The translations under genes and the position numbers were made by a program. DNA of 39,261 bases from Synechococcus sp. GreenBA-s (GTDB taxonomy: Bacteria > Cyanobacteriota > Cyanobacteriia > PCC-6307 > Cyanobiaceae): NCBI RefSeq assembly GCF_024345855.1, contig NZ_JAGQBX010000008.1:36181-75441 (forward strand), given 5' to 3'. Of this stretch, positions 5,701-21,737 are shown one piece after another; the first letter of the stretch is position 1, and each line of letters starts with the position of its first letter. The notes beneath the pieces were generated by a model. The model did no database searches. It was not told where the DNA came from and saw only the letters and a program-made list of their open reading frames with translations.

Positions 5701-6951
5701 TTGATCCAGCGCCCCCGCCGCCAGCGGGGGTGGATGGTGCTGGCCGCCGCCTTGGCCCTGCTGCTCTGGGCCGCTGTGGGCCTGGCCAGGCCCCGGCCGG
5801 TGGAGGTGTCGGTGCTGATGCCGGCCCCCTTCGCCGATGCCACCGCCCCGCTGGTGGCGGCCTTCAACCGCACGCACCGCGACGTTCAGATCGCCGTGAC
5901 GCGCGGGCCGCTCGACACCGAGGCCCTCTCGGATCTGGCGATCAGCAGCCTGTTGCTGGGGGACACCCCCTACGACCTGCTGCTGATGGACGTCACCTGG
6001 ACGCCCAAGTACGCGGCCGCCGGCTGGCTCGAGCCCCTGGAGCCGCTGCTCGGCGATGACGCCATGGAGGGCATGGCCGTCGGCGCGCAGCTGGGCAATG
6101 CCTTCGGTGGCCACCTCTGGCGCCTGCCACTGCTGGCGGACATGGGCCTGCTCTATTGGCGCACCGATCTGATGGACGCCCCGCCCCGCTCCCTGCAGGA
6201 GCTGGCGGCCACCGCCGCCGACCTGAAGGCCAGGGGGGAGGTGAGCTGGGGCTACGTGTGGCAGGGACGCCAGTACGAGGGCCTGAGCTGCGTGTTCCTG
6301 GAGGTGCTGCGGGCCTTCGGCGGCGAGTGGCTGCAGGCCGGCGACCGGGCCGCCCTCGACAGCCCCGCCGCCATCGCCGCCGCCCGCTGGCTGGGCGACC
6401 TGGTGCGCCAGGGGATCACGCCGGCGGCGGTGGCCAACGTGTCGGAGTCGGAGTCGCTGCAGATCTTTGCTGCCGGTGAGGCGGCCTTCATGCGCAACTG
6501 GCCCTACGCCTGGCGGGAGCTGCAGAAGCCGGGCAGCCTCGTGGCCGGCAAGGTGGGCGTGAGCAGCCTCGGCGAGGGCACCCAGGGCAGCTGGGGCTTC
6601 TCGCTGCTGCGGGGCAGCCCCCACCCCGCCGAGGCGGCGGCGGTAATGCAGTGGTTCACCGGTGAGGCCGTGGGCCGCGAGCTGGCCGAGCGCTACGGCT
6701 ACACGCCGGTGTGGAACAGCCTGCTCCAGGATGCGCAGCTCGAGGCCCGGCTGCCGCTGCTGCCGGTGCTGCGTCAGGCCCTGGAACACACGGCGTTGCG
6801 GCCGCTCACCCCCGTGTACGCCCAGCTCAGCGACACCCTGCAGCGGCAGCTCTCGGCCCTGCTCACCGGCGGCGAGGACGCCACCGAGGCCATGGCCCAG
6901 GCCCAGCGCCAGAGCAGCCTGATCCTGCGCTCCGCCGGGGAGGCGCCATGA
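5701..6951 (+). CDS. Carbohydrate ABC transporter substrate-binding protein
   Basis: Extracytoplasmic solute-binding protein of the family-1 (maltose/trehalose/glucosylglycerol) type, about 416 residues. A basic N-terminus (RPRRQRGW) precedes a hydrophobic stretch. No lipobox cysteine is present, so it is exported or anchored through its signal sequence rather than lipidated. Family features include an early VSVLMPAPF strand, a YDLLLMDVTWTPKYA segment, and the C-terminal run of small helices typical of these binding proteins. Both TTG 5701 and TTG 5680 give a basic leader; ATG 5734 would remove it. Its stop overlaps the ATG of the next permease (ATGA at 6948-6951), so the importer genes are translationally coupled. 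Order and family fit the cyanobacterial Ggt osmolyte importer, but no glucosylglycerol synthesis gene lies here. The substrate is not established. Confidence 0.85.
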   Translation: MIQRPRRQRGWMVLAAALALLLWAAVGLARPRPVEVSVLMPAPFADATAPLVAAFNRTHRDVQIAVTRGPLDTEALSDLAISSLLLGDTPYDLLLMDVTWTPKYAAAGWLEPLEPLLGDDAMEGMAVGAQLGNAFGGHLWRLPLLADMGLLYWRTDLMDAPPRSLQELAATAADLKARGEVSWGYVWQGRQYEGLSCVFLEVLRAFGGEWLQAGDRAALDSPAAIAAARWLGDLVRQGITPAAVANVSESESLQIFAAGEAAFMRNWPYAWRELQKPGSLVAGKVGVSSLGEGTQGSWGFSLLRGSPHPAEAAAVMQWFTGEAVGRELAERYGYTPVWNSLLQDAQLEARLPLLPVLRQALEHTALRPLTPVYAQLSDTLQRQLSALLTGGEDATEAMAQAQRQSSLILRSAGEAP

Positions 6952-14394: not shown

Positions 14395-16092
14395 TCAGGA
14401 GAGCAACGGCATCGCCGCGGGGGCTCCGGCCAGGGCAATGCCCTCCCGCTGCAGCCGTGTGATCAGCCGGGCCAGCAGTTCCCGCTGGCAGGCCCACTGG
14501 CGGCCGGTGCGGGTGGTGAGCATCACGCTCACCTCAATGCCGAGCGGCCCCACGCCGTTGACGCCCCGCAGCAGCGGTGGGGCCATCTGTTCGAGGCTCC
14601 AGAGCGGATCACTGGCGAACAGCTCCAGCTCCGCGCCAATCACCGCAAGGGCACCGGGCAGGTCGGCGTTGGTCACCGCCAGGGGCAGCACCACATCGAT
14701 GCCGGAGCGGATCTTGGTGTGGTTCACCAGGCGCTGGCAGCTGCTGTTCTGCACCACCACAACCCGCTGGTCCGCGGCCCGCAGCACGGTCACCAGCAGG
14801 CCCACATCCACCACATCGCCCTCAAGGCGATCGATCTCCACCCAGTCGCCCACGGCGTAGTGGTCGTCGATGAGCACCACCAGCCCCGCCACGAAATCCC
14901 GCAGCAGGCCCTGGAAGGCGATCGCCAGGCCGCCCAGCAGGGCACCACCGGCGAGCACGGCGTTGAAAGAGAGCTCGCTGATGCCGGGAATGTCGGCCAG
15001 CACCAGGATCACCAGCACGGCGATGCAGCCGAGGTCGATCAGCCGCTGGCTGGCCTGCACCAGGTTGCGGTAGCGCTGGTCGCGCCGGGCCCGCTCCTCG
15101 ATCGGCACCCGCAGGCTGCTCACCCACTGCCGCAGCACGAAGGCCGCCAGCAGCCGCAGCAGGAAGGCCACCAGGCCCAACAGCAGCAGCTTGAACAACA
15201 CGGCGATGGGCTGCATCAGGAGGGCCATCCCCAGCGGGATCTGGCCGGGGACGGCCGTGACCCCCAGGGCGAGCATCATCACCAGCTGCACCAGCACCGC
15301 CAGGAACAGCAGCCGGCCGAGCAGCATCAGCAGCTGCGGCCGCAGCCCCTGCAGATCGGCGGCCGTCTGGGCGCCCCGCTGTCGGGCCCGCAGCCGGCTG
15401 CGCAGCTGCGACCAGCCCCAGAAACTGAGGCCCAGCGTTAGGGCCAGGAACAGCTCCACCGCCACCGCGGCCCGAAGACGGATCGCCAGCTGATCGGGCT
15501 GCATGGTGAGCCGGGCGTGGCGCAGCCGCCGCTGCAGCAGCACGCGCCAGCGGGCGGCCAGGGCCGACGGCGTCTGACCGTGCAGCTGGGCATCCGCGGC
15601 CGTCACGGTGAGCAGCGGCAGTGCTTCCGGGCGCCCCTTGAGGCGGGCCTCCAGCACCGGCGGCCCCTGGTCCGCCTGGGCGACGACCAGCGTGAGGTCC
15701 TGGGGCGTGCCGAGCACGTTCCAGGGATCACCCGTGCAGAGCCGATCCGGCCCCCCGAGCACAAGGGTCTCCAGCAGAGACTCGGCCACGGTCTCGCCGC
15801 CGCTGCAGAGGGTCTGGGGCCTGTAGAGCAGGCTCAGGTTGCCCTCGATCACCGTGGCCCGCCGCCGGGCATCGGGACTGTCCTGCCCGGGGCCGACCAC
15901 CGGCGAGGCCACGCTGATGGCCGGAATCCCCAGGATCCGCACCGGTGCCACGTCGTAACTGCCGGCGAGGCGTTCCGGCGGCTCCGCCTGGGCTTCGGGT
16001 ACCGACGCCGGCGCGCCCGCCCTGGCCGCCGGCAGCAGCAGGCAGCTGAGGGCAAGCAGAAGGGCCAGGAACCACGGCCTGCGCATCGGCAT
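14395..16092 (-). CDS. Mechanosensitive ion channel, MscS family, with N-terminal periplasmic domain
   Basis: About 565 residues from ATG 16092. A signal peptide (MRRPWFLALLLALSCLLLP) is followed by a periplasmic domain of roughly 175 residues with two cysteines. Four to five transmembrane helices come next, at about 210-390. The MscS pore and beta domain are clear: GGLAIAFQGLLRDFVAGLVVL, then DDHYAVGDWVEI and VVVVQNSSC. MscS proteins release solutes on hypo-osmotic shock. The large N-terminal part resembles that of extended cyanobacterial MscS paralogues. The same frame stays open upstream to 16788 inside the next gene, but the signal peptide fixes the start. Gaps to its neighbours on the same strand are 97 and 83 bases. 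Confidence 0.88.
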   Translation of the reverse strand: MPMRRPWFLALLLALSCLLLPAARAGAPASVPEAQAEPPERLAGSYDVAPVRILGIPAISVASPVVGPGQDSPDARRRATVIEGNLSLLYRPQTLCSGGETVAESLLETLVLGGPDRLCTGDPWNVLGTPQDLTLVVAQADQGPPVLEARLKGRPEALPLLTVTAADAQLHGQTPSALAARWRVLLQRRLRHARLTMQPDQLAIRLRAAVAVELFLALTLGLSFWGWSQLRSRLRARQRGAQTAADLQGLRPQLLMLLGRLLFLAVLVQLVMMLALGVTAVPGQIPLGMALLMQPIAVLFKLLLLGLVAFLLRLLAAFVLRQWVSSLRVPIEERARRDQRYRNLVQASQRLIDLGCIAVLVILVLADIPGISELSFNAVLAGGALLGGLAIAFQGLLRDFVAGLVVLIDDHYAVGDWVEIDRLEGDVVDVGLLVTVLRAADQRVVVVQNSSCQRLVNHTKIRSGIDVVLPLAVTNADLPGALAVIGAELELFASDPLWSLEQMAPPLLRGVNGVGPLGIEVSVMLTTRTGRQWACQRELLARLITRLQREGIALAGAPAAMPLLS

Positions 16093-16175
16093 CGGCGAAA
16101 CGATCAGCGGAACGGGCTGCGGGCACTCTGGTCGGCGTCGGCCCCCACCGATCGCGCCCCGGGTCCGGTCGCGGC

Positions 16176-19058
16176 TCAGAGCGGCAGGGTGATCGGCGCC
16201 ACCGGCTCGATCTGCGGGTGCAGGCCACCGCACTGGTTGCTGCGCAGGATCAGGGCGCTGGCGCCGGCCTCCAGGAAGGCCCACACCACCGTCTCGCTGG
16301 CCAGCCGCGGCAACAGCAGGCGCCAGCTGCCCAGGCCCCGCAGCAGGTTGTCGAGCGGGCGATCCTCCAGGCTGCTGCCCAGCACCGCGGCGTTGCGCTG
16401 CCAGTCGGGCCGCAGTCCGGCGAAGGGCAGCAGCTGGTGGCGCAGGCGCCGCTCCAGCCGCAGCAGCGCCCGCAGGCGCTCGGCCTGCTCCGGATCGGCC
16501 TGCTCCCAGGCCCGCAGCGCGGCCGGATCCTGGCGGGCCACCTCCTGCTGCAGGGCGCGGATGGCGGCGAACAGGGCCTGGTTGGAATCCTGGGCGCAGT
16601 TGTTGGCCGGGCCCACGAAGGTGGCACCGGTGCCATCGCCCACCCGGTAGCGGGCCATCATCGCCGTGAGCTGATGGTCGAAGCCGTCGAGCGGGGAGCG
16701 GCTGTGGTCGCCGATCCGGTAGGAGCCGGTGAAGGGCGGATAGCGCAGCAGGATGTCGGCCACGGGACGGGTGCCGAGCCAGCCCCACTGGCGATCGCCC
16801 AGGTAGCGCCAGTCGTCGTGGCGGCCGGCGATCAGGCCTTCGGAGTTGTGGGTGTACACCTGGCGGTAGGCCAGCTGGATCGCCGCTTCACCGGCCAGGG
16901 GCTCCGCCACGACCTCGGCAAGGCCATAGGCGAAATGGCCGGCGCAGAGGCCGTGCTGCAGCGCCTGCTCCCGCTGCTCGCCGCCGATGCCACCGAACAC
17001 GTGCACCACCAGCAACCGGTCGCCGAGCTGCCAGCCCGGCGGCAGGGTGGGGCGCGTTGCCGGAGCCGCTGCCGGGTCGAGCCCCGATGCTGCCGCCGGT
17101 GGGGACTGCAGCGACACCAGGGCGCTGAAGGCCGTGCCCGGTTCCAGGGCCGCCCAGATCTCCCGCTTGAGCAGGCGCCGGGCCGCCGTCCGGCCCGTCA
17201 CGATCCGGTCCGGGAGCAGGCGCCGCAGCCGGTGCGGAATCAGCGACTGCACCACGAACGCCCCGGCCCCATCCGGCACCCCGCTCACCAGCCAGCCCTC
17301 GGCATTCAGCCCCGAGCGCTCGATGCCCTCGGCGGTGGCCGGCAGGATCCCCTCGCCGTTGGCGATCGCCGCGGGGAGCCGCAGCTGCAGGTCGGGCTGC
17401 GTGCGGAAGGAACCGCGTTGCGGCTCGTAGCTGGCGGCGCTCCAGAGGTCGTCGCCCAGGGGCTGGCGGAACTGCACCAGGGCCAGCGCCAGGCCCGTGG
17501 TCTGCACCGGCTCGCTCGCGATCCGCAGCAGGGCGCCATCCTCCAGCGCCTCCACGGGCTCGGGCAGCCGCACCAGCACGTCGTCGTCGGGGCGGCTGCC
17601 GGCCAGGGATTCCAGGGGGGAGACCTGGCGCCAGTGGTCGAGCCGCAGCGGGTGCACCAGCCCCTGGCCGGCGCTCCAGCGAGCCTCCGGGCTGAGGTTG
17701 ACATCCCGCACCAGCGCCGCCAGGCGCGGGTCCTGCCACTCCAGCCGGCAGGTGCGGCCCAGCAGATGCCGCCAGGGCTCAGGGGCCGCGAACACCTCAA
17801 AGCCCACCCGGCCGCCGTCGCGCTGCTCCGGGTCCGGCAGCCGCAGGCGTCCGATCCAGCCCGCCAGGGGGCGGAAGCAGGCCGCCGGTGGAGGAGCCGT
17901 GTCGCGCCCCACGTCGAGGCGGTGCCAGCCATTGGCCTGGAAGCGATCGACGTTGCTGGTGGCCCGCCGTGGGGAGGCCTGGGCGGGATCCCGGTCCGTG
18001 AGGATCGCCGCCACCTGATCCACGGTCTGGTCCATGGCGCTGCGGCCATCGGGCAGCAGGTAGCCGGCATCCATCAGGCCGCCCGGCAGGGCATGGCCCA
18101 CCGGCCCCAGGGAGCGGATCGTCACCTGGCCCCGCCGCCGGGCCCGGTTCCAGTAGCTGAGCACCTGCCAGCGCCAGCGGCGCGGGAACAGCAGCGGCCC
18201 CAGCCGCGCCACCGGATCCCGGTCCCCCAGCAGGTGATAGAGGTGCTCGGCTTCCAGGATGGAGGTGTTGCCCGCGAACACCCCGCCCAGGGAGATCACC
18301 TCGATCGGCGCCTGCAGGCTGCGGCGCAGATGCGGCAGCGCCCCCAGGGCGATCTGGCCGCCACCGCTGAACCCCAGCAGGGTCACGGGCGTGCAGCTCT
18401 CCAGGGGGTAGCCGTGGGCCAGCAGGCTGTCGGCGATCACCTGGGCCATGCCCTGGTTGTAGATCGGCCCGTAGCGCTGGTCGGTCGACACCGCCACCAC
18501 GGTGACGTTGCGCAGGTTGATCAGGGCGCCGAGCAGGGCGCGGGGATCCCGCAGCCGCAGGCGATCCACCCAGCGCCAGAAGCCCGCCAGCCAGCTGCCC
18601 TCGGTGAGCGGCACGTTGCGCACCGAATAGGGCATCAGCCCCCGCAGGATGGCGACGTCATCCGGCAGGCGCGCCGCCAGACGCCGCAGGAAGTCCTCCC
18701 CCTCCGGCAGGGCATCGCCCGAGGCCTGGCCGATGCCGTCGAGGTACACAACGAAGCGACTGATGGGCCGATCGCGCGTCACCGGCGCCGCCAGCGCCCC
18801 GGGCGGGGTGCCGGTGTCGAGGGGCTGATCGCCCTCCCAGCCGGCCCACCAGCCCAGGGCCTCCAGCGGGGCGAAGAAGAGGGCGATCAGCACCAGCACC
18901 AGGGCGATCAGGCCCAGATCCAGGGCCAGCCCAAAGGAGCGGCGCAGGCCCGCGTAGGCCAGGTGCAGCAGCGCCCCGGTGCCGGGCACCAGCACCAGCC
19001 CCACCAGGGCCAGCAGCAGCCAGAGGCGTTGGCGCGGGGAGAGGGGCGGACGGCGCAC
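16176..19058 (-). CDS. Large membrane-anchored protein with alpha/beta-hydrolase-like domain, function unknown
   Basis: A 960-residue protein starting at GTG 19058. Two hydrophobic helices lie at about 11-36 and 43-66. A hydrolase-like domain follows (about 100-350) with nucleophile-elbow GFSGGG (Ser231), GDRDP (Asp279/Asp281) and GPVGHAL (His322), in the right order for a Ser-Asp-His triad. The middle (about 400-640) is beta-rich and unrecognised. The C-terminal part has strongly patterned segments: VVHVFGGIGGEQ (685-694), THNSEGLIAGRHDDW (736-750), QWGWLGTRPV (757-766) and FVGPANNCAQDSNQALF (814-830). Cys821 and His737/His747 could be a second active site. I vaguely recall similar C-terminal segments in large cyanobacterial proteins labelled CAAX/CPBP protease, but no CPBP glutamate motifs are visible here. 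Neighbours are an MscS channel and a YIP1-like protein, suggesting an envelope role. Confidence 0.72.
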   Translation of the reverse strand: MRRPPLSPRQRLWLLLALVGLVLVPGTGALLHLAYAGLRRSFGLALDLGLIALVLVLIALFFAPLEALGWWAGWEGDQPLDTGTPPGALAAPVTRDRPISRFVVYLDGIGQASGDALPEGEDFLRRLAARLPDDVAILRGLMPYSVRNVPLTEGSWLAGFWRWVDRLRLRDPRALLGALINLRNVTVVAVSTDQRYGPIYNQGMAQVIADSLLAHGYPLESCTPVTLLGFSGGGQIALGALPHLRRSLQAPIEVISLGGVFAGNTSILEAEHLYHLLGDRDPVARLGPLLFPRRWRWQVLSYWNRARRRGQVTIRSLGPVGHALPGGLMDAGYLLPDGRSAMDQTVDQVAAILTDRDPAQASPRRATSNVDRFQANGWHRLDVGRDTAPPPAACFRPLAGWIGRLRLPDPEQRDGGRVGFEVFAAPEPWRHLLGRTCRLEWQDPRLAALVRDVNLSPEARWSAGQGLVHPLRLDHWRQVSPLESLAGSRPDDDVLVRLPEPVEALEDGALLRIASEPVQTTGLALALVQFRQPLGDDLWSAASYEPQRGSFRTQPDLQLRLPAAIANGEGILPATAEGIERSGLNAEGWLVSGVPDGAGAFVVQSLIPHRLRRLLPDRIVTGRTAARRLLKREIWAALEPGTAFSALVSLQSPPAAASGLDPAAAPATRPTLPPGWQLGDRLLVVHVFGGIGGEQREQALQHGLCAGHFAYGLAEVVAEPLAGEAAIQLAYRQVYTHNSEGLIAGRHDDWRYLGDRQWGWLGTRPVADILLRYPPFTGSYRIGDHSRSPLDGFDHQLTAMMARYRVGDGTGATFVGPANNCAQDSNQALFAAIRALQQEVARQDPAALRAWEQADPEQAERLRALLRLERRLRHQLLPFAGLRPDWQRNAAVLGSSLEDRPLDNLLRGLGSWRLLLPRLASETVVWAFLEAGASALILRSNQCGGLHPQIEPVAPITLPL

Positions 19059-19918: not shown

Positions 19919-20293
19919 ATGCACGCCCTCTCCCTGCCCACCTGGTGGATCCACATCACCTCGGTGCTCGAGTGGGCCCTGGCGATGCTGCTGGTGCAGC
20001 GCTGGGGCCAGCGCCGCGGCGAGCCGATCTGGAGCTGGCTGGCCCTGGCGATGCTGCCGGCCCTGGTGAGCGCCATGTGCGCCTGCACCTGGCACCTGTT
20101 CGACAACCCCGACGGGCTGCGGGGGCTGGTGACGATCCAGGCCGGCACCACGCTGCTCGGCAACATCGCCCTGGCGGCGGTGGCCTACGTGATCTGGCGC
20201 CAGAGCCGCAGCCCCCGCCACGGCGCACCCACGACCATCGCCGGTTCGCAGGCCGCCGCCGTGGCGCCGGCCATCGACACGGCCTCCCCATGA
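19919..20293 (+). CDS. DUF2499 family membrane protein
   Basis: A 124-residue protein with three hydrophobic segments. The sequence HALSLPTWWIHITSVLEW and the later SAMCACTWHLFDN identify DUF2499, conserved in cyanobacteria and in plant plastid-targeted proteins; its biochemical role is unknown. The C-terminal tail is alanine-rich and not conserved. ATG 19919 begins directly at the conserved MHALSLP. Its stop codon overlaps the start of the DUF3593 gene (ATGA at 20290-20293), a pairing I recognise as common in cyanobacteria. A possible -10 element TACATT is at 19838-19843. Confidence 0.88.
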   Translation: MHALSLPTWWIHITSVLEWALAMLLVQRWGQRRGEPIWSWLALAMLPALVSAMCACTWHLFDNPDGLRGLVTIQAGTTLLGNIALAAVAYVIWRQSRSPRHGAPTTIAGSQAAAVAPAIDTASP

Positions 20294-20607
20294 GCGCCGG
20301 CACCTTCCTCGACGGGCTGGCCGGCTTCGATCCGGCACCCCTGTTCGTGCTCTCGCTGGTGCCCTATCTGGCCTTCCTGTGGTGGGCCTGGCGCAGCCGC
20401 CGCTTCCCGCCGCTGGCGCTCTGGGGCTTCGCCATGACCCTGGTGTTCGTGGCGGCCACGATCGTGGCGGCGGTGCTGGCCCAGGTGAACTACGGCCGCC
20501 AGCTGGCCGATGTGGACCACCTGCACGGCGCCGCCGAATCCCTGCTCACCCTGAGCAACCTGCTGGTGCTCGCCGGCTTCAGCCAGGTCGGCAAGCCGGG
20601 GCGATGA
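20290..20607 (+). CDS. DUF3593 family membrane protein
   Basis: A 105-residue protein with three hydrophobic segments and the family pattern PLFVLSLVPYLAFLWW at the N-terminus and DVDHLHGAAESLLTLSNLLV near the C-terminus. Function unknown; plant homologues are plastid-targeted. It is coupled to the upstream DUF2499 gene and to the downstream channel gene by four-base ATGA overlaps (20290-20293 and 20604-20607). That suggests the three products are needed in fixed amounts. The HLHGAAESLLTLSN segment is the best conserved part and could line a membrane site. Confidence 0.87.
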   Translation: MSAGTFLDGLAGFDPAPLFVLSLVPYLAFLWWAWRSRRFPPLALWGFAMTLVFVAATIVAAVLAQVNYGRQLADVDHLHGAAESLLTLSNLLVLAGFSQVGKPGR

Positions 20608-21737
20608 ACCGGCACCACCGTCAGCGCAGGGGCGAGGTCCGGGGCGCTCTGGCGCTGGCGTGGCTTCTGCTGGCCGCGCTACTCGGCGGTCAGCCCGCCG
20701 CCACCGCCGCGGAGCCACCGGTGCTGCGGGTGGGGGTGCTGAGCGGGTCCGCCCCCTGCTCCGACCACACGGGCAACCGCTGGAGCGGCAGCGCGGTGGA
20801 ACTCTGGAACCGGCTGGCGATCGAGGAGGGCCTGCCCTTCGTGTTCGAGGCCCGGGCCAGCGCCAGCAGCCTGCTGGCGGCCACCGCCGCCGGCGAGCTG
20901 GATGTGGGCGTGGGCTGCCTGAACGTGACGCCGGAGCGGATCGGCCGCTACCGCTTCAGCCTGCCCTTCCAGGAGACGGGGCTGGCGGTGCTGGTGAAGC
21001 GCGACCGGCTGCAGCTGGGCCAGGCCGTGCTGCGCTCGCTGCTGGCGCCGGATCTGCTGCGCCTGCTCGGTGGTTATCTGGCGGCGATCGGCCTGGTGAG
21101 CGTGCTGCTGTGGGTGGTGGAGGGCCCGCAGCAGCTGCGGGATGGCCAGGGCCACCGGCGCGGCTTCGCCAAGGTGTTCCAGATCCTGGCCACCGGCCCC
21201 GGCACCAACACCATCGCCAGCACCACCCGGGGGCACGGCCTGGTGATCGTGAGCTACCTGGTGCGCATCGTGACCGCCTCGCTGCTGGTGACCTACATCA
21301 CGATCAACGTGGTGGAGGAGCCCCGGGCCAGCGGCGCCCGTCCGCTCCGCAGCCTGCAGGACCTGGCGGGCCAGCGCGTGGCGGCCCGTCCGGGCAGCGT
21401 GAGCAGCGCCAGCCTGGAGCGGATCAACGCCAGTGGCACGGCCGAGCCGATCACGATCGTGCCGTTGCCGCGGGTGCAGGAGTCGCTGCAGCTGCTGGCT
21501 GACGACCGCGCCGATGCCGTGCTGGCCGACGACCCACAGCTGGAGTTTCTGCTGCGCCGCTCCGGCAACCGCCAGCTGGAACTGGTGCTGCGCAACCAAC
21601 AGAGCGAATCCCAGGCCTTTGTGTTCTCGCCGCAGCTGGATCCGGCCACCGAGGCCCGCATCGATCACGCCATCAGCCGCCTGAAGCAGCAGGGCGTGGT
21701 CGCGGCCCTGCGCCGGGAGGCGATGAACAAGTCTTAA
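20604..21737 (+). CDS. GluR0-like ligand-gated ion channel (periplasmic binding domain split by pore)
   Basis: A 377-residue protein with the architecture of prokaryotic ionotropic glutamate receptors. A signal peptide (about 12-36) is followed by S1 of a family-3 solute-binding domain (40-133) with the ligand-arginine region VTPERIGRYRFSLPF. M1 is at 152-173, a re-entrant pore segment at 188-206 and M2 at 211-236. S2 (250-374) contains the acidic LADDPQLEF. The pore segment reads ILATGPGTNTIAS. The potassium-channel filter TVGYG of Synechocystis GluR0 is not present, so ion selectivity is open. Cys52 and Cys105 could form a disulphide in S1. It overlaps the DUF3593 stop by four bases and ends 56 bases before psaK. 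The alternative, a transport-only binding protein, is unlikely given the two membrane helices inside the binding domain. Confidence 0.8.
   Translation: MNRHHRQRRGEVRGALALAWLLLAALLGGQPAATAAEPPVLRVGVLSGSAPCSDHTGNRWSGSAVELWNRLAIEEGLPFVFEARASASSLLAATAAGELDVGVGCLNVTPERIGRYRFSLPFQETGLAVLVKRDRLQLGQAVLRSLLAPDLLRLLGGYLAAIGLVSVLLWVVEGPQQLRDGQGHRRGFAKVFQILATGPGTNTIASTTRGHGLVIVSYLVRIVTASLLVTYITINVVEEPRASGARPLRSLQDLAGQRVAARPGSVSSASLERINASGTAEPITIVPLPRVQESLQLLADDRADAVLADDPQLEFLLRRSGNRQLELVLRNQQSESQAFVFSPQLDPATEARIDHAISRLKQQGVVAALRREAMNKS

Follow-up and report, generated by a model that had tools for sequence, protein, structure and literature searches.

A picocyanobacterial GluR0-like receptor with a conserved Gly-Pro-Gly motif in place of the K+ filter

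Prokaryotic glutamate receptors serve as the common model for an inverted K+-channel pore joining a binding protein, according to the accessible text of PMC6385376. The Synechocystis member, GluR0, is described in the accessible text of PMC13099474 as having periplasmic termini and a pore loop that is entered from the cytoplasm, and it behaves as a K+ channel and supports K+-limited growth of E. coli. In prokaryotic glutamate receptors the ligand is held through an Arg in S1 and an Asp in S2, which bind the carboxylate and the amino group, and of the 22 prokaryotic receptors treated by Ger et al. 2010, 12 have a K+ filter and 10 have unrecognised P regions, so that, as far as the accessible text of that study goes, non-canonical filters are already known as a class (PMC2950845). 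Outside the receptors, the channel NaKTs is reported to be non-selective and to carry an unusual filter on a K+-channel scaffold (accessible text of PMC5052707). No text on a GPG-type filter was found in the literature searched, which was mostly without subscription papers and supplements. Here we describe a gene through which a freshwater-type picocyanobacterium has a bacterial cousin of the glutamate-gated ion channels of the brain, with the K+ filter replaced by a Gly-Pro-Gly motif.

The gene lies in a 39,261-nucleotide stretch of Synechococcus sp. GreenBA-s DNA (the window), and its features are collected in Table 1. The open frame ends in a stop codon and contains ATGPGTNTIAS, with Thr197, Gly198, Pro199, Gly200 and Asn202 at the numbers given in the original prediction, which had read a GluR0-like S1-M1-pore-M2-S2 order and a non-canonical filter from the letters alone. 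The filter reads ATGPGTN and carries no K+ signature, and the domain order is borne out by an interrupted SBP_bac_3 domain, by predicted helices between the lobes and by a fold match to the GluR0 core. In particular, Pfam returned a single SBP_bac_3 domain (E 5.8e-14) whose match is stretched over residues 41–371, which places an insert between the two lobes; the best Pfam and NCBIfam names for the protein are SBP_bac_3 and GlnH. Among PDB sequences, the ligand core of GluR0 in entry 2pyy matches best (E 2.7e-15), and the Synechocystis GluR0 core 1ii5 matches at E 2.7e-6. The AlphaFold2 model, computed with the window protein and 50 relatives, has a mean pLDDT of 86.9 and a pTM of 0.75, and it predicts helices at 149–180, 184–197, 201–204 and 208–238 between the lobes, residues 198–200 being non-helical. 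The amino-acid-binding domain is present in two segments around M1-P-M2. The host genome (2.85 Mb) holds one full-length copy of the receptor gene and one weak partial match.

Table 1 Features of the receptor locus (window coordinates)
Feature	Position	Strand	Evidence
GluR0-like receptor gene, 377 aa	20604..21737	+	open frame; SBP_bac_3; best PDB sequence match 2pyy
Candidate signal peptide, residues 1–36, basic-hydrophobic N-terminus	20604..20711	+	sequence; AF2 helix 14–25, low pLDDT
S1 lobe, residues 37–134; C52, C105, T109-x-x-R112	20712..21005	+	PDB sequence match, AF2, alignment
M1, residues 149–175 (AF2 helix 149–180)	21048..21128	+	AF2
Pore helix, residues 184–197	21153..21194	+	AF2, full chain and pore alone
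Filter T197-G-P-G-T-N202	21192..21209	+	conservation in 65/73 loci; lowest entropy among segments
M2 inner helix, residues 208–238; R221 codon 21264–21266	21225..21317	+	AF2, alignment
S2 lobe, residues 248–375; D309 codon 21528–21530; Q337	21345..21728	+	PDB sequence match, AF2, alignment
DUF3593 frame, stop overlaps receptor start by 4 bases	19945..20607	+	Pfam PF12159 E 2.8e-35

Structural alignment of the ligand domain with VIA-align placed 1ii5 at the top (Z 27.9; 219 residues at rmsd 2.2), level with the GlnH-type glutamine-binding protein 8hnj_A (Z 27.6), and gave Z 26.9 for 2pyy; because 8hnj_A ties with 1ii5, the fold of the ligand domain alone fits an ABC binding protein as well as a receptor. 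A Foldseek comparison of the full chain with LBD-TMD chains of AMPA receptors gave 7qhb_A at E 5.0e-17 over 378 columns, but with an rmsd of 8.6. The T-x-x-R region and the acidic S2 site, which had been noted as kept, are indeed so. Arg112 is Arg in all 51 rows of the alignment of named loci and in all 114 rows of a wider one, while the first residue of the motif is Thr in 9 and Ser in 37 of the 51. At position 309 there is Asp in 48 and Glu in 3 of the 51 rows, and Asp in 57 and Glu in 3 of the 60 GPGxN rows of the wider alignment. The two residues by which the known receptors hold their ligand, Arg in S1 and Asp in S2, are therefore represented by R112 and D309.

Predicted alone, the pore module had a mean pLDDT of 76.8. 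In a structure search with this module, all 50 matches listed were pores of tetrameric channels (MloK1, Kv, KcsA and others), with MloK1 2zd9 at the top (TM 0.75) and every listed match at E > 0.1. Alignments to TRPV, KCNQ, Kv, KcsA and NaK pores reached Z 9.1–9.9 (NaK 2q68: Z 9.3, rmsd 2.6, 93 residues), a range to be read with the aligner's own warning that for helical folds a Z below about 13 may reflect merely a common arrangement. With tetrameric channels in every listed match, a matching ligand domain and an insert between its lobes, the pore reading is the natural one. The original prediction had named homologues lacking M1 and M2, or a modelled central segment that forms no re-entrant loop, as evidence against a channel; the homologues keep M1 and M2, and between these helices the model predicts a short pore helix (184–197) followed by a loop. 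PF07885, which we take to be the Pfam model of the Ion transport 2 domain, did not match the receptor protein even at E 1. With its ATGPGTN filter and no PF07885 match, the protein falls outside group 1 of Ger et al. 2010, which combines a K+ signature filter with Ion transport 2. In a full-length MAFFT alignment Thr197 falls on the filter Thr and the sequences run gap-free to Gly210, an ungapped and shifted register, while hhalign of the pores alone sets GPG on GYG, a glycine-anchored register, at a probability of 30%. The mean BLOSUM62 sums of the two are near-equal (−5.0 shifted, −3.6 glycine-anchored). Judged from these alignments, GPG may replace GYG either residue for residue or shifted by one.

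The conservation of the motif among homologues, proposed at the outset as a check, proved strong. A whole-protein search of 400 genomes of the family matched 157, and counts were made on 73 of the 74 listed loci with at least 37% identity (that of G152, E 5.7e-96, was left out). GPG[T/S/G]N is kept in 65 of the 73 (GPGTN 34, GPGSN 26, GPGGN 5), which excludes a motif that arose by chance. The other eight comprise GEGDA (4), GSGDD (1), GGGDN (1), GPDTN (1; L189, with a broken frame) and one locus with an S2 match and no pore (L190). The GPG type occurs in at least 64 of the 400 genomes by a count made by hand, the window's own included; the 65 loci fall in 64 genomes because G007 carries two. 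A plasmid search gave one match, at 23% coverage.

A contig scan for named loci with the single receptor protein as query returned none, and the patterns FQ[IV]LATGPG and PFQExG[LQ][AG]V[ML] then retrieved them. Since these patterns selected the loci, we rejected the named set on its own as proof that GPG is kept. In the alignment of the 51 named loci, a set biased by the motif query, the mean entropy is lowest in the filter (0.46), followed by M2 (0.93), the pore helix (0.94), S1 (1.20), M1 (1.38) and S2 (1.51). In the same 51 rows Gly198 is written with four codons (21, 19, 6 and 5 times), Pro199 with four and Gly200 with three, and this silent variety indicates that the protein sequence is preserved as the codons change. 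The nearest named relative among the matches is that of Vulcanococcus limneticus (L085), 87% identical; the remaining named loci belong to Cyanobium, Synechococcus, Aphanothece, Microcystis elabens and other cyanobacteria, and one partial match comes from a metagenome-assembled genome labelled Acidobacteria (L136). This last match (6001–6517, at a contig end) is 47% identical and belongs to a GPG-clade relative; it covers S1, with both cysteines kept, and the first part of M1, after which the sequence runs into an unrelated frame and a stop; it is a misbinned, chimeric or broken copy. L135 and L189 contain a frame change or an in-frame stop and are broken genes or assembly errors, and the matches in G259, G347, G269, G363 and G366 each contain one TGA.

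Among the aligned relatives the filters are of the GPGxN, GYGD, QADEM, GGADN, GTGIYK and GEG/GSG types, with a few singles. Of the 24 loci from outside the family, which are among the best matches in the 160 of 292 genomes that matched, 16 have a GYGD and 8 a QADEM-type filter. A tree of 84 rows was calculated by a quick method with the filter columns removed; the 60 GPGxN rows were thinned to 30, exact duplicates were dropped, and L002, L014, L018, L019, L020, L022, L135 and L136 were left out as fragments or partial matches. The tree holds long rows, two of which (L013 and L017) meet. One group unites the 30 GPGxN and the five GEG/GSG rows (SH-aLRT 99), another the GYGD, QADEM and GGADN rows (SH-aLRT 96), and a third the GTGIYK rows with five of the six singles (SH-aLRT 97). 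Because the five GEG/GSG rows sit inside the GPG group, GPGxN alone needs two changes on the tree. Genome G094 holds both a GPG locus (L038) and a GYGD locus (L078), and G099 a GPG (L042) and a GTGIYK locus (L071). Since GPG genomes can thus hold other filter types as well, the GPG gene represents a paralogue rather than a GluR0 in decay. L011, L061–L064 and L188 have acidic or small filters (GEGDA, GSGDD, GGGDN), and L011 and L061–L064 keep the M2 arginine and nest among the GPG rows, where they form a natural charge contrast. L012, L065–L068, L070, L071 and L073 form a paralogue group of their own, in which filters read, for example, MGTGIYKMG or MGSGTYKMS; these GTGIYK-type proteins share the cysteine pair and the M2 arginine with the GPG clade.

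Three marks set the GPG clade apart from the GYGD relatives, in counts for which 12 of the 60 GPGxN rows come from the motif-biased named set. Cys52 and Cys105 occur together in 60/60 GPGxN, 5/5 GEG/GSG and 8/8 GTGIYK rows and in all of the six others except L021, but not in any of the GYGD (0/24), QADEM (0/8) or GGADN (0/3) rows, which have Phe, Leu or Tyr at position 52 and Pro, Gly, Ala or Asn at 105. Arg221 in M2 shows nearly the same distribution (GPGxN 60/60, GEG/GSG 5/5, GTGIYK 8/8, others 4/6; absent from GYGD, QADEM and GGADN rows); counted from Gly210, it presumably falls at KcsA Gly99. At the position of Gln337, Tyr is found in every QADEM and GGADN row and in 23 of the 24 GYGD rows. 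Position 107 was also considered as a mark and was rejected, being Asn 39, Thr 18 and Ser 3 in GPGxN rows and Ser 17, Thr 6 and Gly 1 in GYGD rows. Position 105 lies four residues before T-x-x-R and its equivalent in the Synechocystis S1 segment, as given in the accessible text of PMC2950845, is Pro, which places it at the ligand pocket. From the sequences we can fairly infer a C52–C105 disulfide. For the original prediction that an amino acid ligand is likely, the kept Arg and Asp anchors speak in favor, but C52, C105 and Q337, all on the side of the pocket, form a set unlike that of the GYGD, QADEM and GGADN proteins, and the claim stands in weakened form.

The chemistry of the pore differs as well. 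From the pore helix to the end of M2 (residues 187–236) the window protein has no acidic residue, and neither Asp nor Glu is present over this span in 43/60 GPGxN and 4/8 GTGIYK rows; acid-free pores were found in 0/24 GYGD, 0/8 QADEM, 0/3 GGADN and 0/5 GEG/GSG rows. A 2025 study describes, in its accessible text, an acidic residue four places past the Q/R/N site in animal and plant receptors, with an equivalent in GluR0 (PMC12226733). At this post-filter position the ungapped register puts Asn202 in the GPG clade. The GEG/GSG group, which keeps R221 yet has acids in its filter, counts against a simple charge story.

Next to the receptor gene, the start codon overlaps the stop of the DUF3593 frame (ATGA), and the same overlap is found in Vulcanococcus limneticus. 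By tblastn, DUF3593 lies upstream in 21 of the 51 named loci, and in many of these Dxs, IlvA and ScpB follow on the downstream side, as they do in the window; the other 30, some of them on short contigs, gave no match beside the gene, and DUF3593 is not supported as a fixed operon partner. No ABC permease or ATPase was detected by Pfam among 20 picked nearby ORFs. About 4 kb from the receptor gene, a large ORF on the reverse strand (14395–16788) contains an MscS-type mechanosensitive-channel domain (PF00924). PF07885 matches four loci in the host genome, all of them distinct from the receptor gene; L167 reads TTTGYGD, and a motif scan of the other three gave no clear filter.

We hold with middling confidence that the protein is an amino-acid-gated channel on the inverted K+-channel scaffold, which would not be K+-selective and would probably be weakly selective for monovalent cations. 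It would form a tetramer of the GluR0 kind in the plasma membrane, with two helices per subunit and the binding lobes in the periplasm. By analogy to Synechocystis GluR0, a small amino-acid-like ligand would be held by Arg112 and Asp309, and closure of the lobes on the ligand would pull on M2 and open the tetrameric pore. The pore itself departs from the K+ design by the change of TVGYGD to a neutral T-G-P-G-[T/S/G]-N, by the exchange of the post-filter acid for Asn (in the ungapped register) and by the Arg in the inner helix; monovalent cations would pass with weak selectivity, or the channel would at least not be K+-selective. We place weak cation selectivity first because the filter has lost the K+ signature, there is no match to PF07885, and the filter-altered channels NaKTs and NirBac are non-selective. 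The acid-free pores and the invariant R221, unusual for a cation pore, speak against this cation channel, and the weak E values and the Z of 9–10 of the pore alone, together with the equal match of glutamine-binding proteins to the ligand domain, speak against the channel and receptor reading in general.

A somewhat unlikely alternative is a receptor that does not conduct, in which the pore would act as membrane anchor and oligomer core and the protein would signal to another membrane protein, perhaps the DUF3593 product. The neutral filter, the inner-helix Arg and the start-stop overlap with DUF3593 in the window and in L085 would suit it, but the filter is the most constrained segment of the protein, unlike a mere anchor, the 377 residues include no cytoplasmic output domain, and DUF3593 adjoins the gene in just the 21 named loci. 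That the protein is simply a binding protein of the ABC type into which a membrane segment is inserted appears very improbable: the SBP_bac_3 and GlnH names and the equal match of GlnH-type structures to the ligand domain point that way, but the insert sits between the lobes and not at an end, the model has pore-type helices, and in place of an uninterrupted binding protein beside permease and ATPase genes there is one interrupted by M1-P-M2, with neither gene among the 20 nearby ORFs picked for Pfam.

Two further readings concern what passes through the pore, and we regard each as improbable. Conduction of anions or small neutral solutes instead of cations would agree with the acid-free span, which separates the GPG rows from the GYGD and QADEM rows, and with R221 in all GPGxN and GEG/GSG rows; against it, the nested GEG/GSG group combines R221 with filter acids, and the inverted K+ fold, in which the carboxyl ends of the pore helices point at the cavity, favors cations. 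The glutamate receptor family is also not known to include an anion-selective channel. Equally doubtful is retained K+ selectivity, with glycines at the GYG sites and backbone carbonyls doing the work as in GluR0. The glycine-anchored hhalign alignment and the GxG spacing common to the GPG, GEG/GSG and GTGIYK groups argue for it, but neither register keeps more than two of the five TVGYG letters, the ungapped full-length alignment prefers the shifted register with the two scoring nearly alike, and PF07885 misses the receptor while the same genome encodes a separate TTTGYGD channel. A broader proposal, which we put forward as speculative, is that the picocyanobacterial proteins are a separate branch of glutamate receptors in which the K+ filter has been rebuilt several times (GPGxN, GEGD/GSGD, GTGIYK and others), and that the GPG pores, mostly acid-free and all with the inner-helix Arg, would belong to an amino-acid-gated channel with changed permeability, possibly for anions or without selectivity, whose origin in bacteria was independent of that of the animal receptors.

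With the GPG type, dozens of small genomes hold a conserved natural filter without the K+ signature on the same scaffold, and GPG together with the other filters of its close relatives offers a ready set of variants for finding which letters set selectivity in the family. It also bears on which substances cross the membrane of freshwater-type picocyanobacteria in response to an amino-acid signal. The window protein shares with Synechocystis GluR0 (slr1257) the split domain around M1-P-M2, the S1 Arg, the S2 Asp and the fold of the ligand-binding domain, and differs from it in the GPGTN filter and, in the ungapped register, in Asn for the post-filter Asp; from the GYGD relatives it also differs in the C52/C105 pair, the M2 Arg and Q337. 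The non-K+ filters found outside the family are of the QADEM type and group with the GYGD rows, not with the GPG clade. By description, in the accessible text of PMC2950845, the protein would fit group 2 of Ger et al. 2010, which has the receptor topology and a P region of no recognised selectivity. NaKTs, from Tsukamurella paurometabola, shares the K+-channel scaffold and an uncommon proline-containing filter; it differs in being a plain 2-TM, Ca2+-dependent channel with the filter LPMGNGPLSP, for which the accessible text mentions no split binding domain (PMC5052707), and because NaKTs needs Ca2+ to open, behavior is not to be read from a proline-bearing motif. The NirBac proteins likewise are members of a K+-channel family with replaced filters and, in the accessible text of PMC4607889, are non-selective in flux assays, but they are Kir-type channels, whereas the GPG protein combines its replaced filter with the architecture of a receptor.
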